Shown piece by piece: positions 2,976 through 24,678 of a DNA stretch of 36,170 bases. Positions within the stretch are counted from its first letter, which is position 1. Each line of letters opens with the position of its first letter. Under the pieces are notes generated by a model. It saw only the letters and a list, made by a program, of their open reading frames with translations. It ran no database searches and was not told where the DNA came from. Made by a program: the position numbers and the translations under genes. The DNA lies in IMG/VR virus record IMGVR_UViG_3300038696_000646, positions 1 to 36,170 of that record; one strand, 5' to 3'. This stretch comes from a virus.

Positions 2976-3119
2976 TCAGTGCCCCTCCAATTCAGTCGGC
3001 ATGATGCCAGCCGCATACCATGCAATCGCCACGACGATCAGCAGGCACGCGATCAGGCCGATGATGTTGATGGCGGTTTCTAGGTGCGGGCGGCGGGTGA
3101 CTTCGGGGGAACGGGTCAT
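2976..3119 (-). CDS. Small single-pass membrane protein
   Basis: A 47-residue protein with a charged N-terminus (MTRSPEVTRRPHLET) and one clear transmembrane helix (IIGLIACLLIVVAIAWYAAG), ending in a short polar tail. The ATG overlaps the methyltransferase stop by 4 bp (ATGA), and its stop abuts the next gene, which supports a real coupled gene despite its size. The positive N-terminus would favour an N-in, C-out topology. Function unknown. Confidence 0.65.
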   Translation of the reverse strand: MTRSPEVTRRPHLETAINIIGLIACLLIVVAIAWYAAGIMPTELEGH

Positions 3120-4888
3120 GCGGCGATCTCCTGTTGCATGGATGCGGGGCGGTTTGCGCTGGCGAGGGCGGCAGCGAGGGGTGGGCAGACGGAGTTGCCG
3201 CACATGCGGATCTGCTGGGTCGAGGTCATCCGTTCGCCCTGTGCGCCGTGGTCGATGATGTAGCTGTCGGGAAAGCCTTGGGCGCGGAACTGTTCGCGCG
3301 GGGTAAGCATGCGCATGCCGATGTCTGCGATCGCGTAGGTCGCGCCGTCGATCTCGACTGTGACCAGCCCGAAGGTGTCGCGGGTGGCGACGGTATGGGC
3401 GGGGGCGGTAAGCGACTGGCCTACGCCCTGGCCGTAGTATTTGGTCAGGAAGGCCGCGACCAGCGCGCCATGGTTGCCGCCTGCGCAGATGGACGGGTTT
3501 GGGGCATCGACAGGTCGGGCGCTGCGCTGGGTGCCGTGCATGTTCATCAGGTGGGCTGCCACGGCGAAAGTGTGCGCGCCGCCAGCGGTGATCGTATGCG
3601 TCGGCTCTGCAGCCCCCTGAAATGGCTTGCCACTGTTGCGCATGGTCATCAGGTGCGCTGCGATGACGGTTTGCTGCGCACCGGTGGTGGTTAGGGTCGA
3701 GAGCGGGGCTGCGGCGCGTCTGCCGATCAGGCCCGTATTGTGCTGGGCCAGAAAGGCGCTGACCAAAGCGTGCTTGCCGCCGCCTGCGACCAATGTGCCG
3801 ATCGGCTTGTGCAGATCCAGCGTGCGGGGCTTCTGGCCCTTTGCCTCGCCATATCCGGTCTGGATGAGCGATGGAGCGATAATGGCGTGTCGGTTTGCGG
3901 TAGTAAGTGTTGCCAAGGGTACTTCTGGGCTGTGACTGCGATCGGTGCCGCCTGTGCCGTGGCCATAAAAAGAGGTTAGCGAAGGTACGATGATCGCGTT
4001 CTGGTCCTTGGGGCTGGCCGTCACGGTGTGCAGCGGGGCCGTGCCTGACCGGACTGCGCCGCCGTGCTGGCCGTAGGTAACCACAAACGGCTGTTTGTCC
4101 TCGATCACGTACCGCTGCACGCCGCGCGCGATGCGGCGCAGGGTGTTGTCGGCGAGAGGGCGGACCGCGCGCAGGCCGTGCTTTTCCATGATCTCGGCGC
4201 TGGTGTCGAAGATTGAGGGGCAGGGCAGTGACCAGTCTATGATATCCGCCGCGTTGCGCCATGGTTTCAGCTGTCCGCTGCGCACCATCATGTCATCGGG
4301 GGCACCGTGGGTCGGCTCGGGCCAGACGATGGGCAGGCCGTCACAGCGCGCCACCAGAAAGAGGCGCTTGCGGATCGTGGGTGCGCCGTAGTCGCAGGCG
4401 CGCAGCTGGCGCCAGTCGACGGTGTAGCCAAGGCGGCGCAGCTTCTCGACCCAGAAGTTGAAGGTCTGGCCGCGCCGTTTCGGGCAGGGCTTCATGTCTT
4501 CGGTGAGCGGGCCCCAGTCCTCGAACTCCTCAACGTTCTCCAGCAGGATCACCTGCGGGCGCACCATCTTGGCCCAGTAGACCACAATCCACGCCAGATC
4601 CCGGATGTTGCGTTTGACCGGCTTGCCGCCCTTGGCCTTGCTGTGATGCTTGCAGTCGGGCGAAAACCACGCCAGCGCCACGCGGTGATCACCGCAGGCT
4701 GCGCGGGGGTCCACCTTCCAGATGCTGGTATTCAGATGGCGGGTTGCTGGGTGGTTGACCTGGTGCATGGAGAGCGCGGCCGCATCGTGGTTGATGGCGA
4801 TGTCCGGGCTGCGGCCAAAGGCCATCTCGATGCCCGTGGATGCACCGCCACCGCCTGCGAAGCTGTCGATGATGAGGGGGAGGGTCAT
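3116..4888 (-). CDS. C5-cytosine DNA methyltransferase with internal repeat array
   Basis: Predicted to transfer a methyl group from SAM to C5 of cytosine, probably to mark phage DNA against host restriction. Of 590 residues, 1-180 form the catalytic half: motif I DSFAGGGGAS (8-17), motif IV SPDC with catalytic Cys79, motif VI ENVEEF (117-122), motif VIII around 161-180. Motif IX (RMLTPREQFRAQGFP) and motif X (GNSVCPP, 564-570) close the protein. In place of a classical target-recognition domain, residues about 270-515 hold about seven degenerate repeats of 28-40 residues, each with a P-x-x-T-(I/L/V)-T/A core followed by a hydrophobic strand (A-x-x-A-H/F-L). The canonical Pro-Cys of motif IV is Asp-Cys here, as I recall for some phage enzymes. 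No restriction endonuclease is adjacent, so it is an orphan methyltransferase. It overlaps neighbours by 4 bp on each side. Confidence 0.92.
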   Translation of the reverse strand: MTLPLIIDSFAGGGGASTGIEMAFGRSPDIAINHDAAALSMHQVNHPATRHLNTSIWKVDPRAACGDHRVALAWFSPDCKHHSKAKGGKPVKRNIRDLAWIVVYWAKMVRPQVILLENVEEFEDWGPLTEDMKPCPKRRGQTFNFWVEKLRRLGYTVDWRQLRACDYGAPTIRKRLFLVARCDGLPIVWPEPTHGAPDDMMVRSGQLKPWRNAADIIDWSLPCPSIFDTSAEIMEKHGLRAVRPLADNTLRRIARGVQRYVIEDKQPFVVTYGQHGGAVRSGTAPLHTVTASPKDQNAIIVPSLTSFYGHGTGGTDRSHSPEVPLATLTTANRHAIIAPSLIQTGYGEAKGQKPRTLDLHKPIGTLVAGGGKHALVSAFLAQHNTGLIGRRAAAPLSTLTTTGAQQTVIAAHLMTMRNSGKPFQGAAEPTHTITAGGAHTFAVAAHLMNMHGTQRSARPVDAPNPSICAGGNHGALVAAFLTKYYGQGVGQSLTAPAHTVATRDTFGLVTVEIDGATYAIADIGMRMLTPREQFRAQGFPDSYIIDHGAQGERMTSTQQIRMCGNSVCPPLAAALASANRPASMQQEIAA

Positions 4889-5212: not shown

Positions 5213-5569
5213 TTACTTTTGCAGCGCTTCTAGGCGTCGAATTTCGTCAAACAGATTGCGGTTGCGATTAAACATCTCGTTGAGGCGAGTTGCTCTTTCT
5301 TCGGCTTTATCCAAAAGCCGCTCTATGTATCGTTCGGCTTCGTCGCGCCGCTGGATCGCTTCTTCGAGTTCGGATCCCTGCGTGTAGCAGGTGCATCCGT
5401 CGGGATGCTGGATCGACCCAAAGCAGCCCGGAATATGCACCCATTCGTCAGGACCTACCTTCACGTGGTGGCAGGGGATGTGTGTGGGATTTTCGCGGCG
5501 CACTGTTCGTTCCTTTGCTGCTGGCGTCTGTCGCTGGCCCCTGTTTCCAAGGGCCAGATCAGGCGTCAC
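5213..5569 (-). CDS. Hypothetical protein, Cys/His N-terminus and coiled coil
   Basis: A 118-residue protein starting at GTG, which overlaps the stop of the upstream FtsK-gamma/GapR-like gene as GTGA. The N-terminal half has a possible metal-binding cluster (IPCHH, then GCFG, then GCTCY). The C-terminal half from about residue 67 is a continuous charged coiled coil (ELEEAIQRRDEAERYIERLL onward). An internal start near the PTHIPCHH segment is possible. I do not recognise the family. Confidence 0.6.
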   Translation of the reverse strand: MTPDLALGNRGQRQTPAAKERTVRRENPTHIPCHHVKVGPDEWVHIPGCFGSIQHPDGCTCYTQGSELEEAIQRRDEAERYIERLLDKAEERATRLNEMFNRNRNLFDEIRRLEALQK

Positions 5570-6564
5570 ATTCCGAGGGCTTCTTTGTACATGGCGAGGA
5601 CGGCTTCCTCCTCGGCGATGTCGTCGGGTTCGCGTTTGCGCAGGGCGATGACCTTGCGCAGGATCTTGGTGTCGTAGCCCCGCGATTTGGCTTCAGCCAT
5701 GACATCCTTTTGTTGCTCGGCGAGGTCTTTCTTCTCCGCGTCCAGCTGCTCGATCCGCTCGACAAACTGGCGCAGTTCGTTGGCGGTGACCTTGTAGGTG
5801 TTGTCGGCGGCGGTATCGAAGCTGGGGTCGGGTTTCATGGGTGGTTTTCCTTGGGCTTTTCGGCGTGCGGCTTCGGAGGCTTTCATGCCTGTCACTATGG
5901 CGTCGAGCATGATGCGGCCTTGCTCCTCGCCCGCGATGTCCATGACTTCCTTGCGGATGTTGAGTGCGGCGCGCAGATCGTCGGGGCTGTTGATGGTGCG
6001 CTTTCCGACATGGTTGGCGGGGGAGACGACTTTCATCTCCTCCATTTTCTCGATCAGGTGCGCGGCAAGGTTGTAGCTGATGCCGAGCTTGCGCTGGATG
6101 AATGAGGTTGAGGCTTTGCCTTCCTGCCAGACCAGATGCACGGCTTGCCGAAAAAGCGCCTCTTCGTTGGCTTCTCGGATTGCGCCAAAAATGTTCGCAC
6201 CTGCGCAGATTGAGATTCCATCTCTGATCTGGACGTGTCCGGGGTCTTCGCGCTCGATCGGGCGGGTGATGTCTCTTATCATGCCTGTCCGGTCATCGGC
6301 GGCTTTAATCTTGTTCCATTGCGGCGCAATCGCTGCCCAGTAGGCGTTGACCTCAGCCATGCGGGGCAACTCGGCGCGGAGTGCCGGCGCGGCGTTTAGC
6401 AGCGCCTCACAGCGTCCAAAGTCGCCGTCGTCCAAGGGGTAGCTTCCATCCTGTTCGCCGTAGCCGCGCAGGTGTGCTGCGATGGAACCTGCGGACGCAC
6501 CGCGCGCGCCAGCATCTACCCATGCGCGCAGATCGTCGGGTATGGTCTGAGTGGTGTCTGTCAT
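5566..6564 (-). CDS. Protein joining FtsK-gamma-like and GapR-like (DUF2312) domains
   Basis: A 332-residue, three-part protein. Residues about 7-100 are an unnamed domain (DGDFGRCEALLNAAP, then AYWAAIAPQW). Residues about 134-195 match the winged-helix FtsK gamma domain (ALFRQAVHLVWQEGKASTSF followed by IQRKLGISYNLAAHLIEKME), which in FtsK reads oriented KOPS DNA motifs. Residues about 252-332 match GapR/DUF2312 (NTYKVTANELRQFVERIEQL, EAKSRGYDTKILRKVIALRK), the alphaproteobacterial protein that binds overtwisted DNA and helps topoisomerases. There is no FtsK motor domain. It is probably a DNA-organising or replication/segregation accessory factor that reads both sequence and topology; this role is inference. 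ATG start at 6564 follows 93 bp without a gene upstream. Confidence 0.85.
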   Translation of the reverse strand: MTDTTQTIPDDLRAWVDAGARGASAGSIAAHLRGYGEQDGSYPLDDGDFGRCEALLNAAPALRAELPRMAEVNAYWAAIAPQWNKIKAADDRTGMIRDITRPIEREDPGHVQIRDGISICAGANIFGAIREANEEALFRQAVHLVWQEGKASTSFIQRKLGISYNLAAHLIEKMEEMKVVSPANHVGKRTINSPDDLRAALNIRKEVMDIAGEEQGRIMLDAIVTGMKASEAARRKAQGKPPMKPDPSFDTAADNTYKVTANELRQFVERIEQLDAEKKDLAEQQKDVMAEAKSRGYDTKILRKVIALRKREPDDIAEEEAVLAMYKEALGM

Positions 6565-11602: not shown

Positions 11603-12306
11603 CGCGGGCGCGTTTGATCGCGGATGACGAATTCCGCCGCCTCTGGGCCAGCGAAATGTCCGCCCCCAAGATTGCGGCGCATTACGGGCCTACTGTCACG
11701 CCATGGCACGTACATTCAGCTGCAAAGGCGGCGGGGTTGCCGCCCAAGGGGCGCGGTAAAAAGCGGGACGAAGTGGCCATCCGCCGGATGTGGGATGCAG
11801 GCGTTCCCGTGCCTGAAATTGCGCGCGCCTGCGATACCAGCGGCAGTCGGGTGTGGGAATTGGTGCGCGTGCGGGATTGGCCCAAGCGCGCGCCGCGTAT
11901 GACCATCGCGCAGCTGGATCTGGATGTGGTTGTGGCGCTCTGGTTTTCCGCAAGGAAGCGTGAAGATCTGGCGGATGCTTTGGGCGTATCCTCGCAATCA
12001 GTCACCGAGGTCAAAAGCCATTTTAGGCTGCCGCCTCGGAACGGATTTCACGCCGGTGTGGATTTGGACGAAAAGCGCCGTGCGTGGCTGGCTGCAAAAG
12101 AAAATGCGCTCAAGGCCGAAGAGGCGCAGGCTGCTGCACCATCGGTCCCTGTGGTATCCGGCCCGCCGTTCTGGACGCCCGAGCGCGATGCGCAGGTGTT
12201 CGCCACGGGCGGGCGCTATGCCGCGCTGCGTGCCGCTGCGCGCGGGCTGGGTAAGCCGGTGCAATACGTTCAGGCGCGCTGGCACCTGCTGAAGGTGGCC
12301 GCGTGA
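11599..12306 (+). CDS. Protein with repeated HTH-like segments
   Basis: A 235-residue protein that appears to contain several homeodomain-like helix-turn-helix units: residues about 8-45 (FRRLWASEMSAPKIAAHYGP), about 52-90 (VAIRRMWDAGVPVPEIARAC), about 100-140 (ALWFSARKREDLADALGVSS) and a weaker C-terminal one. Serial HTHs that each read IAxxxG-type turns suggest binding to repeated or long DNA sites. Basic linkers (KGRGKKR) support DNA contact. Strong ribosome-binding site GGGGGTAGGGG before the ATG. It overlaps the MT-A70 gene by 4 bp. Function as a regulator is inference. Confidence 0.72.
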   Translation: MTRARLIADDEFRRLWASEMSAPKIAAHYGPTVTPWHVHSAAKAAGLPPKGRGKKRDEVAIRRMWDAGVPVPEIARACDTSGSRVWELVRVRDWPKRAPRMTIAQLDLDVVVALWFSARKREDLADALGVSSQSVTEVKSHFRLPPRNGFHAGVDLDEKRRAWLAAKENALKAEEAQAAAPSVPVVSGPPFWTPERDAQVFATGGRYAALRAAARGLGKPVQYVQARWHLLKVAA

Positions 12307-12953
12307 GCGCGCGCATCATATCGGAGTTCCGTGCCCTGCGGCCTGCGGGCGGGTTTGACTTCATCATGGCGGATCCGCCGTGGCTTTACGAACTTCGCAG
12401 CGATCGGGGAAAGGCGAAAAGTCCTGAAGCGCATTACGGGTGCATGGATCTGGACTGGATCAAGGCGCTACCCGTGCGCTGGCTGGCAGGGCCCGATTGT
12501 CTGTTGTGGCTGTGGGCAACCAATCCGATGCTGCCGCAAGCGATCGAGGTTCTGGAGGCGTGGGGCTTTACCTTCAAGACGGCGGGCACTTGGGTGAAGC
12601 GCACCAAGCACGGGCGCGATGCCTTTGGCACGGGATACGTGCTGCGCAGCGCCAATGAGCCTTTCCTGATCGGCACCATTGGCGCGCCCAAGACCACGCG
12701 CAGCACGCGGTCAACCATCCCCACCTATGACGAAGGCCTGCAATCTCTGGCGGATGGCGGTGCGTGGCCCATGGGCTCGATCACGATCGAGGGGCCGCTG
12801 CGCGCGCATAGCCAGAAGCCGGAAGAATGTTTTGCCGCTGCCGAAGGCCTGATGCCCGATGCGCAGCGGATCGAGGTGTTTTCGCGCACCAACCGCCCCG
12901 GCTGGTCGGCGTGGGGGAATGAAACTGGCACGATAGGAGGAACGGATGGGTGA
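12303..12953 (+). CDS. MT-A70-family adenine DNA methyltransferase
   Basis: Predicted N6-adenine methyltransferase of the MT-A70/MunI-like group: catalytic motif DPPW at residues 24-27, GCMDLDWIKALPV after it, LLWLWATN strand, GFTFKTAGTWVK, and the C-terminal HSQKPEE (SAM-binding) and EVFSRTNRPGWSAWGNE. It is a common phage enzyme that modifies phage DNA (for example protecting GANTC or GATC-like sites), but the target here cannot be read. 216 residues is a usual length. It overlaps the upstream HTH gene by 4 bp and the downstream gene by 8 bp. With the C5 enzyme at 3116-4888, the phage has two methyltransferases of different chemistry. Confidence 0.92.
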   Translation: MSARIISEFRALRPAGGFDFIMADPPWLYELRSDRGKAKSPEAHYGCMDLDWIKALPVRWLAGPDCLLWLWATNPMLPQAIEVLEAWGFTFKTAGTWVKRTKHGRDAFGTGYVLRSANEPFLIGTIGAPKTTRSTRSTIPTYDEGLQSLADGGAWPMGSITIEGPLRAHSQKPEECFAAAEGLMPDAQRIEVFSRTNRPGWSAWGNETGTIGGTDG

Positions 12954-14949: not shown

Positions 14950-15105
14950 CCGGCCCCCGCGCACCGCCCTGATTGGCAGGCTTTCACAGAAGCGCCAGCC
15001 CGCTCCGAAGAGGGTGGCGGTGCAAAACAGGCCATTTGGGGCCGTCTGACAGACGAATTCGGCGTCGGCATTTGGCCGCGCCAAAATGCATGGGCAGGAT
15101 TATGA
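14946..15105 (+). pseudogene. Probable frameshifted 52-codon gene
   Basis: A GTG at 14946, coupled to the previous stop, opens VTGPRAPP and stops. In the +1 frame the DNA is open and strongly protein-like from about 14950 (RPDWQAFTEAPARSEEGG... GRLTDEFGVGIWPRQNAWAG) until TGA at 15103-15105, which overlaps the ATG of the next gene. That frame has no start codon of its own. Removing one C from the CCCCC run at 14954-14958 would join the two into one coupled 52-residue protein. This is either a frameshift mutation, a homopolymer sequencing error, or programmed frameshifting. Confidence 0.5.
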
Positions 15106-15719
15106 GCCATAAAGCAACGAATTGGGCGATTTCGAAGCGCGGGTTGAAGCCTGCGACCAAGCTGGTGCTGTGGCATCTGTGCGACCGGCATCACCCGGAT
15201 CACGGCTGTTTTCCGTCGCAGGAGACTCTGGCGCATGACTGCGAGATGTCGCGTGCCTCGGTGAACGTGCATCTGGACAAGCTGGAAAAGGCGGGCCTGA
15301 TCCGCCGCATCCAGCGCACCAACAAAAAGCAACAGCGCAAGATTTCGACGCTGTATTTGTTCGCGTTCGACGAGGGGTTTTCAGTCGGTGAAACAGATCA
15401 GGAACCGCAAAAGCCGTGTCCAGATTCTGGACATGGAGCCGTGTCCAGAAAAACGCAAAAGCCGTGTCCAGAAAATGGCAAAAGCCGTGTCCAGAATCTG
15501 GACATAAACCCTGTAAGGGAACCTTTAAAGAACCTTGCGCGCGAGACCGATGATGATGGTTTGTCTCCGATTGCCCTGTTCTGGATCGACCGGATCGAGA
15601 TCAGCATGTCGGGACGGCCCGCAGGGGTCGAGGCGATCTCGCCAGATGTGCGCAGGCAGATCGCTGGCAGCGGCTTGCTGACCGCCGAGCAGCTGACCGC
15701 AGCCGGATTGGCAGGCTGA
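15102..15719 (+). CDS. Winged-helix replication-initiator-like protein (lambda O analogue)
   Basis: A 205-residue protein. Residues about 8-75 form a helix-turn-helix/winged-helix domain (KPATKLVLWHLCDRHHPDHG; CFPSQETLAHDCEMSRASVN; HLDKLEKAGLIRR), typical of phage replication initiators. The middle (about 95-135) is low-complexity and is encoded by DNA direct repeats; the C-terminal 60 residues may bind a helicase loader. Start ATG at 15102 with CAGGA upstream; the longer frame from 14973 reads as non-coding. Position in the early-right operon and iterons within the gene copy the lambda O/ori arrangement. The origin role is inference; a simple regulator is the alternative. Confidence 0.78.
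   Translation: MSHKATNWAISKRGLKPATKLVLWHLCDRHHPDHGCFPSQETLAHDCEMSRASVNVHLDKLEKAGLIRRIQRTNKKQQRKISTLYLFAFDEGFSVGETDQEPQKPCPDSGHGAVSRKTQKPCPENGKSRVQNLDINPVREPLKNLARETDDDGLSPIALFWIDRIEISMSGRPAGVEAISPDVRRQIAGSGLLTAEQLTAAGLAG
15407..15504 (+). repeat. Four iterons and two palindromes inside the O-like gene (candidate origin)
   Basis: Direct repeats of GCAAAAGCCGTGTCCAGA occur at 15407-15424, 15455-15472 and 15478-15495; a fourth copy keeps the core GCCGTGTCCAGA at 15438-15449. Core starts are 25, 23 and 23 bp apart. The first and last copies extend into perfect palindromes TGTCCAGA-N-TCTGGACA (15417-15433 and 15488-15504). The repeats fall in three reading frames of the host gene, so selection is on DNA, not on the protein. 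Confidence 0.8.
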
Positions 15720-15723
15720 AACC

Positions 15724-16347
15724 ATGGATGCTTTGGAAAAGGGGAACGGGATGGACGGATCGACTGAGATTGAAACCACGGCAGCGGAGAGCAAACGGGC
15801 GCGGGTGCGCCGGTTGCTGATCGAGCCGCTGACGTCGCAGGGGATGCGGTTCAAGCATGGCACGGCGGTCGAGGTCCAGCGCAAGAGGCTCGACCGGATG
15901 GCGGATGATCTGGGCTACATGCACGACGATGCGTTGGTGGTGTTGCGGCGCTGTCTGCTGCGCAACGGCGAGGGGGTCAAGAAGTGCTTCTGGCCCGAGC
16001 GGGTCAGCTATCTGGGCTATGCCCATGCCTTCCAGCCGCGCAGCATCGATGACGAACCGGCGATGCTGGCGTGGTTCGCTTCGGTGGCGGGGCGTGAGGC
16101 TCAGGCCGTTCCGGGTCTCGCCGTGGCGCAATACGAGTTCTGGTGCAAATACTGGCACCCGCCTTTCGCCGAAAAGCACAAGCGCGCTGTGATGGGCAAG
16201 GTCGCGGAGAATGCGCAGCGGCTGGCTTACTGCGAGGCGCGCGATGCGGAGGGCAGTCTGCGCGATCCCGATCACATCGCGTGGCTCAAGGCGTACCGCG
16301 AGAAGGCGGCAAAGGTCGCGGGCTGGATCAAAGGGGCATCCGCGTGA
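15724..16347 (+). CDS. Hypothetical protein in the replication module
   Basis: A 207-residue, mostly helical protein of unknown function at the position where lambda has P (helicase loader). I see no Walker A motif, so it is not a DnaC-type ATPase. Conserved-looking features are MADDLGYMHDDALVVLRRCL (about 60-80), Trp-rich EFWCKYWHPPF and a helical C-terminus. An alternative ATG at 15751 has a better ribosome-binding site (GGGGAACGGG). By neighbourhood it may help replication; this is not shown by sequence. Confidence 0.7.
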   Translation: MDALEKGNGMDGSTEIETTAAESKRARVRRLLIEPLTSQGMRFKHGTAVEVQRKRLDRMADDLGYMHDDALVVLRRCLLRNGEGVKKCFWPERVSYLGYAHAFQPRSIDDEPAMLAWFASVAGREAQAVPGLAVAQYEFWCKYWHPPFAEKHKRAVMGKVAENAQRLAYCEARDAEGSLRDPDHIAWLKAYREKAAKVAGWIKGASA

Positions 16348-17048
16348 ACGCGCGGGCGCAGTTCGACGCGGCGGGGCGGGCCGTGGTGCAGGGTGGTAAC
16401 AACAGGGCAGGGCGGTCAATGCGGGATACGATGGGGCGGGTGCGGCAGGAAATTAGCATTCAACGGCTGCTGGAATGGGCATTCGCCGATGAATGCGCGC
16501 AGGTGGATTTCGAGGACGACAATTTTGATAGCTGTCATGGTGGTGGCGGTGCTGAATGGCGGATCGCACAGATTGCTCGGCTGGGATGTCGCGTAGACGG
16601 GGGCGGGCGGTCTTACCCGGATGCGGATGCAGACATCGTGGCCGGTGCGGTCGCTGCGTTGCCCGAGGGCTGCGGCGGGCGCGGCATGGCTGTGCAGATT
16701 GCTGAGCTGGCGCGCGCGCGGCGGGTGCCGGATGCGATGATGGGAGCGGTGGCACGGTGCATTCCGCGTGCGACGCGCCAGAACATGCACGGTACGTGGT
16801 CGCAGACTGAGGTTATCGGGCGCGGCGTCGATTGCAGCGGTCGCAAGGTCAAGCGCTATGATATTCTGGTCTGTCCTGTCACATATACCCACACTTCAGC
16901 TGATATCGCGCGGGCTCGTCGCAATTATTTGCAGTGGCGTCTGGCGCTTATGGAATTGCGTCAAACCTTTGTAATTCATAACGATCTGTCGCGATGGATG
17001 CTGTCTGATGTTCTACCCTCGCGCGCGCCATGGCAAAATAGTATTTGA
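16344..17048 (+). CDS. Candidate late-gene regulator
   Basis: A 234-residue protein starting at GTG (GTGA overlap with the previous stop; AAGGGG upstream). Features: SIQRLLEWAFADECAQVDFE, GAEWRIAQIARLGCRVDGGG, AVQIAELARA, and a C-terminal CPVTYTHTSADIARARRNYL-QW motif. I recall proteins of this pattern at the end of the early-right operon in roseobacter prophages. Its place directly before the promoter-terminator element at 17045-17123 and the late operon matches lambda Q, so antitermination or late activation is a reasonable hypothesis. No biochemical role is known to me. Confidence 0.7.
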   Translation: MNARAQFDAAGRAVVQGGNNRAGRSMRDTMGRVRQEISIQRLLEWAFADECAQVDFEDDNFDSCHGGGGAEWRIAQIARLGCRVDGGGRSYPDADADIVAGAVAALPEGCGGRGMAVQIAELARARRVPDAMMGAVARCIPRATRQNMHGTWSQTEVIGRGVDCSGRKVKRYDILVCPVTYTHTSADIARARRNYLQWRLALMELRQTFVIHNDLSRWMLSDVLPSRAPWQNSI

Positions 17049-21056: not shown

Positions 21057-22574
21057 ATGAACCTGATTGACCGTGCCGTCGCGTTCGTTTCTCCCGAACG
21101 CGCCCTCAAACGTGTACGCGCACGTCAAGCGATTATGCATTATGACGCGGCTACCGTGGGTCAGCGGGCATCATCTTGGAAGGCATCCAGCACGGATGCG
21201 GATGCAGCTGCCGGGCGCCGTGACCGCATGGCGTATATCGCCCGTGACATGGTGCGCAACACTCCCTTTGCGCTTCGCGCGCAGCAGGTGATTGCAAACA
21301 ATGCAGTGGGCGACGGGATCATTCCGAAAGGGATTATCCCCAAGGGTGAGAATGATCCGGACGGCCTGCGCGAGATCCTGTTGGAGATGATCGAGAACAC
21401 ATGCGACAAGACGATCATCTCAGCTGACGGACGGCAGAACCTCTACGGGCTTCAGCGGTTGGCCATGAACACGATCACCGATGCCGGTGAAGTACTGATA
21501 CTACGCGAATACGTGGCTGATCCGCGCCCTGGCCAGTTCAGGTTGCGGCTGCGCGTGCTGGAGCCAGACTTTCTGGACAGCCTGCGGGATGGTGTCCTGA
21601 CCGACGGCGGTAGCATCCACGACGGGATCGAATACAACGCCGATGGCCAGCGCGTGGCCTATCACTTGTTCGACCAGCACCCAGGCACAGACTGGTTCAA
21701 AGGGATCGGGTGGCGCAGCCGGTCGCGCCGTGTGCCAGCGCACCGTGTGCTGCATATTTACCGGCAGGATCGCCCGGGCCAGAACCGTGGCGTCAGCTGG
21801 TTCGCCCCAATCGCCTTGGCGCTACAGGATCTGGGTGATTATCAGGATGCGCAGATCATGCGCCAGAAGATCGCTGCCTGCTTTGCGGCGTTCCACAAGC
21901 GCAGCGAAACGCTGGCCGATGGCGGTAACAGCGAGGCAACATCCCTTGGTGGGTCGCTGAGCCCTGGGCTGATCCAAGACATCGCATCCGACGAAGAAAT
22001 CACGTTTTCTAACCCGCCTGATGTCACCGGATACGAAACGTTCACGCGCACGGTGCTGCTGTCGATCGCGTCGGGCATGGGGATTACATACGAGGCGCTG
22101 GTCGGCGATCTGAGCAACGTCAACTTCTCCTCTGCCCGCATGGGGCGGATGGAAATGGATCGCAATGTGTCCAGCTGGCAATGGCTGATGCTGATCCCTC
22201 AGATGATGCACCCGATCGGCGACTGGCTGCTCGAAGAATGGGCGCTGATGGATCCCGAGAATGCTCGCCAGATCAAGCAATGCAGCCTGAACTGGGTCCC
22301 GCCTTACCGCATTCTTGTCGATCCTGCGCGCGAGATCGGCGCACTGCGCGAAGCGGTCCGGGCAGGCTTTGCCAGCCGTCAGGGTGTTGTCCGGCAGTTG
22401 GGCAGCGATCCGGAGCGCCTGATCGAAGAACAGCAAGCCGATGCCAAGGATGCGGAGCTTCGAGGCCTTGTCTTCGACAGTGACGCTGCAGCGGTATCAC
22501 AATCCGGTGTCACCCAGACGCCACCGCCTGCGGATGAGAAAACACCACAAAGGAACAACAGCGATGGAAAATGA
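21057..22574 (+). CDS. Portal protein, lambda gpB family
   Basis: Dodecameric DNA gate of the capsid. The 505-residue protein shows the lambda-portal pattern: N-terminal helix, YDAATVGQRASSWKASSTDA, RDRMAYIARDMVRNTPFALR (the typical R-x-R-aromatic segment), NAVGDGIIPK, LRLRVLEPDFLDS, HRVLHIYRQDRPGQNRGVSW, and GMGITYEALVGDLSNVNFSS followed by ARMGRMEMDR. Start ATG at 21057, just after the gpW stop. The longer frame from 20931 is not used. The C-terminal tail (QSGVTQTPPPADEKTPQ) is disordered. Confidence 0.95.
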   Translation: MNLIDRAVAFVSPERALKRVRARQAIMHYDAATVGQRASSWKASSTDADAAAGRRDRMAYIARDMVRNTPFALRAQQVIANNAVGDGIIPKGIIPKGENDPDGLREILLEMIENTCDKTIISADGRQNLYGLQRLAMNTITDAGEVLILREYVADPRPGQFRLRLRVLEPDFLDSLRDGVLTDGGSIHDGIEYNADGQRVAYHLFDQHPGTDWFKGIGWRSRSRRVPAHRVLHIYRQDRPGQNRGVSWFAPIALALQDLGDYQDAQIMRQKIAACFAAFHKRSETLADGGNSEATSLGGSLSPGLIQDIASDEEITFSNPPDVTGYETFTRTVLLSIASGMGITYEALVGDLSNVNFSSARMGRMEMDRNVSSWQWLMLIPQMMHPIGDWLLEEWALMDPENARQIKQCSLNWVPPYRILVDPAREIGALREAVRAGFASRQGVVRQLGSDPERLIEEQQADAKDAELRGLVFDSDAAAVSQSGVTQTPPPADEKTPQRNNSDGK

Positions 22575-24678
22575 ACTGTACCTCTACGGCACCGTCGGCG
22601 GCGCGTTCTGGGATGAGGACTTCTTTACGCCGAACACGGTGCGCGATGAGATTGAAGGCCTCAGCGGCCCGTTGACCGTCCGTATCAACTCCGGTGGCGG
22701 CATCGCCTCGGACGGGCAGGCGATCTACACGATGCTGCGTGACTATCCCGATGTTGTTTCCGTCATCATCGATGGTGTTGCCGCAAGTGCAGCAAGCCTG
22801 ATCGCAATGGCTGGCGACACGATCACCATGCGTCTGGGATCCACCATGATGATCCATGACCCGGCGAACCCTTGGGTGGACGGGCGCGGCACCGAACAGG
22901 ACCACCTGAACGCAGCGAAGGGTCTGAGCGTGGTCAGCAACGCCTATGCGGCTGTCTACGCCAAGAAGGCGGGCATTTCCGTGGATGATGCTCGGGCGAT
23001 CATGCGCGTCGAGACCTATTATGACGGCGATGGGGCAGTCGATGCTGGATTTGCCACTGCCGTCGATGACGACACTGAGGCCGAAGCCGTGGCGCGGTTC
23101 GATTACCGCGTCTATGCGCACGCCCCCGAAGAGCTGCGCAACGCTGGAGGGGAATTCACCACCCAGAAGAGCAGAAAGGCCGTCATGGCCCTGATGGCCG
23201 GTTCTGCCGTGCCCAAACCCAAGGAGAAGAAGATGGCAAAGCGCCCCGCGAAGAAGTCCCAGCGTTCGACCATGAAGGATCAGACCGATCCGGACATGAT
23301 CGGCGACGAAGAGGAAATGTCCAAAGAAGAGCAGATGCTTGAGGAGGACGGCACCGAAGAGGATTCCACGGAAGAGGAAACCGATGGTGAAGAAGAGGAT
23401 GACGGCGAAGAAGGTGACGGCGACGAAGCATCCGCCAACCCTGTAGCAGCCCAAATCCGAGATATTTGCGCTGCATCGAACCGTACAGAGGCTGAAGCGC
23501 TGGACATGATCGTGCGGGGCCTGACGCTAAACCAGGCTGTCGCCGAAATCACCACCAACCGGGCGAAGGAGAACCCCGTGAGCGGAAAACGCAACGGTGC
23601 ACCGCGCACCACAATCATGCGCGATGAGCGCACCACTCGCCGTACTGGTATGGCTCAGGCGATTACTGCGCAGATCATGGGGACCAACCCGGCCAGTTCC
23701 ATGGCGCGGCCCTTCATGGACCTGACACTGGTCGAGATGGCGGCGCAATGCATCGGCCACAAAGGTCCGCTGCGCAATGCTGGTCAGCGGACGCAGGTGT
23801 TCATGGACGCGGCACATTCGACCTCCGACTTCCCTGGGATCTTCGAAAATGCGCTCAACAAGGTTTTGCTGGAACGCTACCAGCTGGCCGAGCCGACATA
23901 TCGCCAGATCGCGCGCAAGCGTAACTTTACCGATTTCCGCGTGCACCCGATGGTGCGGGCGGGTGACTTCCCCAAGCTTAAGCGTATTGGCGAGAATGGT
24001 GAAATCAAGTTTGGCACCTTCGGCGAAGCCCGCGAAACAGCGATCCTTGCACCTTACGGTGTTGGTCTGCGCATCAGCCGCCAGATGATGATCAACGATG
24101 AACTGGGCGCGATCGACGAGGTGCTGTCAGATTACGGTCAGTCAGTTGCGGATTTCGAAGAAGAGACGTTCTATGCCTTCGCCCTGAGCAGCGCCAAGCT
24201 TTCGGATGGCAAAGCTGTCTTCCACGCGGATCACAACAACCTGGCCGCTGCGGGTGCGGCGATTGACGTCGATAGTGTTTCTGCGGGCCGTGCGGCCATC
24301 CGAAAGCAGAAAAGCATTGATGGCAAAATGTTGAATATGACCGCATCAATCATCTTGGTCGGTCCAAACAAAGAAACGGAAGCTGAGCAGCTCGTCGCAG
24401 CTATCCAGCCGCAGGAATCCGGCAAGGTGAACCCGTTCTCAGGCAAGCTTGCACCAGTGGTGACTGCTCAAATCACGAATAACAACTGGTTCTTGTTGGC
24501 TGGGTCTGATCGTCCAGGTGGCGCGCTTTGGACTTATGGCTATCTGGACGGTGCAGAGGCCCCCCGTGTGCGCACCGAAGAGGCCTTTGGTCAGCAAGGC
24601 ATGTCTATGACTGTCGAGCATGACTTCGGTATGGGCGCCATCGATTATCGCGGCGGCTGGAAGAACCCTGGCGCATAA
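22564..24678 (+). CDS. ClpP-like prohead protease / major capsid protein fusion
   Basis: A 704-residue protein with three parts. Residues 1-200: ClpP/S49-type serine protease with INSGGGIASDGQAIY, putative nucleophile Ser75 in GVAASAAS and His98 in MMIHDP. Residues about 224-338: acidic, Glu-rich segment, probably scaffold (DEEEMSKEEQMLEEDGTEED). Residues about 339-704: major capsid protein of the Mu gpT/HK97-like fold (ARKRNFTDFRVHPMVRAGDF, GLRISRQMMINDELGAIDEV, FHADHNNLAAAG). Fusion of protease and capsid in one frame is known in some phages. Internal Shine-Dalgarno-start pairs at 23221-23235 and 23566-23580 may also give separate scaffold-capsid and capsid products. The main ATG has AAGGA upstream. 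Confidence 0.93.
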   Translation: MENELYLYGTVGGAFWDEDFFTPNTVRDEIEGLSGPLTVRINSGGGIASDGQAIYTMLRDYPDVVSVIIDGVAASAASLIAMAGDTITMRLGSTMMIHDPANPWVDGRGTEQDHLNAAKGLSVVSNAYAAVYAKKAGISVDDARAIMRVETYYDGDGAVDAGFATAVDDDTEAEAVARFDYRVYAHAPEELRNAGGEFTTQKSRKAVMALMAGSAVPKPKEKKMAKRPAKKSQRSTMKDQTDPDMIGDEEEMSKEEQMLEEDGTEEDSTEEETDGEEEDDGEEGDGDEASANPVAAQIRDICAASNRTEAEALDMIVRGLTLNQAVAEITTNRAKENPVSGKRNGAPRTTIMRDERTTRRTGMAQAITAQIMGTNPASSMARPFMDLTLVEMAAQCIGHKGPLRNAGQRTQVFMDAAHSTSDFPGIFENALNKVLLERYQLAEPTYRQIARKRNFTDFRVHPMVRAGDFPKLKRIGENGEIKFGTFGEARETAILAPYGVGLRISRQMMINDELGAIDEVLSDYGQSVADFEEETFYAFALSSAKLSDGKAVFHADHNNLAAAGAAIDVDSVSAGRAAIRKQKSIDGKMLNMTASIILVGPNKETEAEQLVAAIQPQESGKVNPFSGKLAPVVTAQITNNNWFLLAGSDRPGGALWTYGYLDGAEAPRVRTEEAFGQQGMSMTVEHDFGMGAIDYRGGWKNPGA
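23221..23235 (+). promoter_or_regulatory. Internal translation start for scaffold-capsid part
   Basis: AAGGAG at 23221-23226 is followed after 6 bases by an in-frame ATG (23233, residue 224), exactly where the protease ends and the acidic scaffold-like segment begins. Lambda uses such a nested start for Nu3 inside gene C. Confidence 0.5.
23566..23580 (+). promoter_or_regulatory. Internal translation start for capsid part
   Basis: AAGGAG at 23566-23571 is followed after 6 bases by an in-frame GTG (23578, residue 339) at the start of the capsid domain. Initiation here would give a 366-residue protein, a normal capsid-protein length. Confidence 0.45.

Follow-up and report, generated by a model that had tools for sequence, protein, structure and literature searches.

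A candidate phage replication origin inside its own O-like initiator gene, with iterons that covary with the initiator's recognition helix

The initiator gene and its iterons

The window analyzed here is the whole 36,170-nucleotide IMG/VR record IMGVR_UViG_3300038696_000646. On its + strand lies a gene whose 205-residue product matches Pfam HTH_36 (PF13730; E = 3.8e-18) and PHROG 345, "replication initiation O-like" (E = 5e-25). This bears out a sequence-only reading of the same DNA, which had called the gene winged-helix and replication-initiator-like. The Pfam search returned no match of this protein to PF04492 (Phage_rep_O), and none to PF06970 (RepA_N) at E ≤ 0.1. A fold search yielded nothing at E ≤ 0.001 and only generic winged helices (MarR, DnaD-N, Rep-DNA 5kbj). 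The start codon, ATG at 15102, is supported by aligned homologues, which open with MSH at the same place. The features of the locus are as follows.

15102 to 15719, + strand: O-like replication initiator gene, 205 amino acids (Pfam HTH_36, PHROG 345, AlphaFold2 model)
15252 to 15290, + strand: recognition helix, codons 51 to 63, with putative specificity positions Arg51 and Val56 (AlphaFold2 helix 51 to 63; covariation with iteron bases)
15413 to 15437, + strand: iteron 1, full dyad GCCGTGTCCAGATTCTGGACATGGA, palindrome 15417 to 15433 (exact copies; first-site dyad kept in homologues)
15438 to 15449, + strand: iteron 2, single half-site (exact copy; homologue triple)
15461 to 15472, + strand: iteron 3, single half-site (exact copy; homologue triple)
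15484 to 15504, + strand: iteron 4, full dyad, palindrome 15488 to 15504 (exact copy; homologue pattern)
15505 to 15534, + strand: candidate DNA-unwinding element TAAACCCTGTAAGGGAACCTTTAAAGAACC, tandem units of about 12 bp (repeat conservation; AT content)
15567 to 15716, + strand: predicted C-terminal helical domain, residues 156 to 205, exchanged between homologues (AlphaFold2 model; alignment)
15724 to 16347, + strand: next gene, 207 amino acids, predicted all helical, a conserved partner (homologous open reading frame in about two dozen loci)

AlphaFold2 predicts that the initiator consists of a winged-helix N-terminal domain (pLDDT mostly 93 to 97), a disordered linker (about 50) that is encoded by the iterons, and a small helical C-terminal domain (81 to 93). 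We propose that the iteron-encoded peptide is a disposable linker.

The iteron GCCGTGTCCAGA occurs in four exact + strand copies, starting at 15413, 15438, 15461, and 15484 (spacing 25/23/23 bp), and nowhere else in the window. GCAAAA precedes three of the four copies, giving the extended form GCAAAAGCCGTGTCCAGA at 15407, 15455, and 15478. Only the outer iterons, first and last, are dyads, with 17-bp palindromes of the form TGTCCAGA-N-TCTGGACA, while the inner two resemble single half-sites. Offsets of the copies within the gene are 311, 336, 359, and 382 (frames 2, 0, 2, and 1), so that all three frames are used. Every detail of this array given in the sequence-only reading proved exact. Its claim that the constraint acts on DNA is likewise upheld by the use of three frames and by synonymous-codon shuffles that preserve the protein (n = 5000): no 12-mer ever exceeded two copies, against four observed, with a two-copy 12-mer in 293 shuffles and one copy in the remainder. 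An Rfam scan produced zero matches and thus pointed to no known structured RNA. Cumulative GC skew climbs across the window without a turn at the candidate origin, and is therefore uninformative.

The product of the next gene (AlphaFold2 pLDDT 89) has no significant match in Pfam, PHROGs, or NCBIfam and no PDB fold match at E ≤ 0.001. We considered it as a helicase loader; its structure is well predicted, yet no PDB fold match supports the label, and no helicase loader was recognized in the window. Elsewhere in the window, two DNA-binding modules of chromosome replication and segregation, an FtsK gamma domain (9e-21) and a GapR-like DNA-binding domain (1.7e-31), are united in a 332-residue protein (5566 to 6564, − strand), an unusual pairing for a phage. 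One open reading frame at 22441 to 24678 fuses Clp-type protease and major capsid domains. The window also encodes a C-5 cytosine methylase and an MT-A70 methyltransferase (genes at 3116 to 4888, − strand, and 12303 to 12953, + strand). The DNA at 16626 to 16732 is about 74% similar to Phaeobacter plasmids of about 40 kb, and the initiator gene matches a 104-kb Roseicitreum plasmid at 72%; these plasmids are possibly phage-plasmids that share the replication module.

Conservation of the array and of a downstream repeat

We collected homologues from whole genomes in the family and order of the host as well as from annotated phages and viral contigs. The resulting set comprises 172 distinct sequences including the window (171 homologues), and 102 alphaproteobacterial genes were aligned in detail. 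In the alignment, the conserved N-terminal domain and linker stay, and the C-terminal regions are often unrelated among homologues. Nearly all alphaproteobacterial members with an MSHxATxW start carry intragenic repeats, typically a dyad followed by copies at +25, +48, and +71, the last often a dyad too. The final triple, at a spacing of about 23 bp (22 to 24 allowed), is kept in 102 homologues with its copies in different frames; its members are usually identical over nine bases, and codon-shuffled controls score far lower. The repeats are thus neither absent from homologues nor locked to one frame. Position, spacing, and three-frame phasing are retained while the sequence differs.

A group of AT-rich marine relatives (L042 to L052) is without iterons. 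A scan of 385 alphaproteobacterial genomes for the triple pattern gave no match, but most alphaproteobacterial phages carry a looser arrangement than this pattern demands. In the group with an SNGT helix, the dyad unit is multiplied in steps of 36 bp (12 codons). Six of the loci (L028 to L031, L035, and L041) have the outer dyad unit up to four times in such in-frame steps, which suggests that iteron number evolves through codon-neutral duplication.

Directly 3' of the last iteron lies an element that the sequence-only reading had overlooked (15505 to 15534). The homologue consensus after the last iteron is TAACCyTGTAAGrGAACC-nnTAAG..., in units of about 12 bp. In 96 of 102 genes, a match to AACC(N1-2)GTAA is found at most 75 nt from the third iteron, with 185 matches in the 6.6 kb so defined versus one in 86 kb elsewhere in the same genes. 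AT content after the last iteron averages 0.63, whereas the coding region upstream is at about 0.38. We propose, from this conservation and composition, that the AACCnGTAA tract is a putative unwinding element.

As part of the coding sequence, with some of its units in one frame, the segment might matter for its peptides (of the CPESGH/EPV type), the DNA repeats being secondary. We regard this as extremely improbable. Both in homologues and in the window, the iterons are spread over three frames, and the linker that they encode is predicted to be disordered. The first unit of the downstream element falls in frames 0, 1, and 2 in 65, 19, and 12 genes, respectively. In 76 genes the Val of this element is encoded by GTA, a codon that accounts for 34 of the 1025 Val codons elsewhere. 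Three-frame use and codon bias together identify a DNA element and not a peptide motif.

A related tract is found in a second bacterial class. At least two units of GAACCnGTnA are present in 70 of 75 distinct gammaproteobacterial phage genes, in two frames, where they follow GGTRGTGCA iterons that are unrelated to those of the window. When the downstream element alone was used as a finder on 80 viral loci, 54 matches lay in winged-helix initiator open reading frames; a few others were truncated copies, and most of the rest were repetitive AT-rich coding sequences. The motif is therefore diagnostic only next to iterons.

Some homologues (e.g., L067, L016, and L165) also have a GC-rich inverted repeat, such as GCGCGCAAGCGCGC, 45 to 110 nt after the third iteron. 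It occurs in 38 of 100 homologues versus 8.4 when codon-shuffled, and in 80 of 902 other stretches. We left it out of the proposed origin, and the window has none of at least 6 bp.

Covariation between the recognition helix and iteron bases

The iteron core is uniform within each gene and differs by lineage (CCGTGTCCA, CCGTGTCCG, CCGTGTCTC, CCATCTCCG, CCGTCTCCA, CCAACTCCA, and others). We compared these cores with the N-terminal domain in the 102 genes, an effective number of about 44 at 80% identity. Residue 51 predicts iteron base 7: with Arg, the base is G (xGTCC) in 56 of 56 genes, and with any other residue it is C (xCTCC) in 46 of 46. Among the individual iteron copies, 168 have G where the protein has Arg and 135 have C where it does not; 3 copies deviate. 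Residue 51 accounts for all of the entropy of base 7 and ranks first among 93 columns, under an anchor pattern that admitted only G or C at that base.

Residue 56 ranks first among the same columns for base 11 (0.88) and for bases 9 and 10 (0.79). Arg goes with TC; Asp, Glu, Ala, or Leu mostly with CG; and Asn, Lys, Thr, or Ser mostly with CA, in classes that were chosen after the data had been seen. Exceptions number 6 of 102 genes, the window (Val56, CCA) among them.

Genes outside this table were scanned for both base-7 alternatives, and those with a recognizable core agree with the rule, except for a group with Glu51 (L039, L117, and L198); the fit of L148 and L177 is ambiguous. In the Glu51 group (helix IDERSVRR), AACCGGACA repeats at 23 bp, which is TGTCC on the opposite strand. 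Iteron orientation appears to be reversed in these three loci, and the simple code fails there. In L150 and L148, Arg is found at residue 52, and L150 has a different core, CCGTGTGCA, hinting that residue 52 is a third specificity position.

Shared ancestry alone could produce such a correlation if the iterons were sites for another host or phage factor. In a tree built without the helix columns, residue 51 changes only twice, and the phylogeny is based on the 93-residue domain only, which leaves this explanation some room. Both changes nevertheless coincide with a base change. One of them is a close natural swap, in which L115 (SRSALN) has CCGTGTCCG with GTGTCC and its sisters L018, L021, and L022 (SLSALN) have CCGACTCCG with GACTCC. 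For residue 56, 12 edge-disjoint pairs differ in base class, and 10 to 11 of them differ in residue class as predicted. Across 200 random pairings this result recurred almost every time; with shuffled data the mean was 1.4 and the maximum 7. In addition, the best predictors among the 93 columns are two positions of the recognition helix itself, and genes excluded from the table agree. We therefore consider binding by another factor very unlikely. The simplest reading of the covariation is that the initiator's own winged helix would read the iterons.

A candidate origin and its relation to known systems

The sequence-only reading had named the array a candidate phage origin. Our analysis strengthens that proposal: changes in the repeats track the recognition helix of the initiator, and downstream of the iterons lies a candidate unwinding element. 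Two characteristics of replicons with an origin in the initiator gene are present, namely direct repeats under DNA-level constraint inside that gene and an AT-rich element adjoining them. Largely because of the comparison with 171 distinct homologues, we conclude that the segment at 15413 to 15534 is very probably a phage replication origin within its own initiator gene, on the lambda plan.

We infer the following course of events. The winged-helix domain would bind the iterons, with Arg51 reading the G of TGTCC and residue 56 setting the next bases. An array would then form over the two outer dyads and the two inner half-sites and would melt the adjacent AACCnGTAA tract. Recruitment of the replisome or host replication proteins may fall to the exchangeable C-terminal domain, either by itself or together with the product of the next gene. 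The further suggestion of the sequence-only reading, bound dimers on one face of the helix, stays tentative, since the outer sites are dyads but the inner ones look like single half-sites, and a spacing of 23 bp amounts to some 2.2 turns.

In iteron replicons, the sites that serve initiation commonly serve control as well. An array bound by its own gene product could thus serve mainly in autoregulation or copy control (repression or handcuffing) and not in initiation, and the covariation indicates only that the initiator probably reads the sites. We find this unlikely, because the array is within the coding region and not at a promoter, the window has no extra copies of the 12-mer, and a conserved AT-rich repeat tract directly follows the array. 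Furthermore, segments of this kind support replication in the PF13730 and RepA_N precedents (PMC5703833).

In lambda, too, iterons inside the initiator gene O are accompanied by an AT-rich tract (PMC7466680). The parallel that the sequence-only reading drew with lambda holds in part. Both have four iterons mid-gene (spaced 20/24/23 in lambda, by the NC_001416 annotation, versus 25/23/23 here) followed by an AT-rich tract, and lambda O also matches PHROG 345 (5e-17). The likeness ends at the protein family, since lambda O matches PF04492 only and the window's initiator is HTH_36, and at the iterons, every one of which is an inverted repeat in lambda (PMC7466680). The tract is an A-rich run in lambda versus AACCnGTAA repeats here, and lambda has P next to O, whereas no P-like partner was recognized in the window.

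For HTH_36 initiators, the best experimental precedent is pPR9 Rep, which, in the available text of PMC5703833, has a PF13730 N-terminal domain with its own origin, and whose mini-replicon replicates. As in the window, this domain and the origin region form a joint module before an exchangeable C-terminal domain. Unlike the window, pPR9 is a staphylococcal plasmid with an unrelated pSK41 C-terminal domain, and that text describes no iteron code. RepA_N initiators of the pSK41 type (PF06970), in the same text, similarly have repeats in the center of rep, bound by a winged-helix N-terminal domain, and the repeat-encoded linker of pSK41 is dispensable; their fold family, hosts, and repeats are different. 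In the Vibrio cholerae PLE, the DNA-binding domain of RepA and the origin covary, as here, and are functionally cognate, but in that system the origin lies between genes, and whole modules covary, not single residues with single bases (PMC8263062). Replication proteins of the SfV, ST64B, and PseuP_222 type share with the window HTH_36 and an array, in their case GGTRGTGCA iterons at 22 to 23 bp, followed by tandem GAACCnGTnA; their iteron sequence is unrelated and their hosts are gammaproteobacterial.

In the open literature, we found neither this architecture described for alphaproteobacterial phages nor an unwinding element of the GAACC type, and a Rhodobacter phage paper mentions neither an origin of replication nor iterons. 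Nor did we find the residue-base code or the shared downstream repeat described in the open literature.

Taken alone, the feature in the window adds one more example of a known plan; the novelty lies at the level of the family, in the recognition code and in the downstream repeat that is shared. A wider generalization, to which we give somewhat less than an even chance, is that HTH_36 phage initiators form a broad origin-in-gene class. Two recognition-helix residues would spell the iterons by a readable code. The tandem GAACCnGTnA 12-mer, common to alpha- and gammaproteobacterial phages, would be an unwinding or loading element bound sequence-specifically (e.g., as a single strand) by a shared factor. 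It would follow that the EPV/EPS peptide repeats are the GAACCnGTnA element read through.

Phage proteins of this family, which carry no annotation beyond "helix-turn-helix domain protein" or "replication initiation O-like," can now be given a candidate origin at a definite place, together with a recognition code whose predictions are open to point mutants and swapped iterons. Phages of two bacterial classes share an apparently undescribed repeat next to iterons that are unrelated, and the recurring low-complexity linkers of these initiators may be explained as origin DNA that has to be read as codons. If this is true, sequence could reveal the origins of many prophages and predict which of them are compatible.
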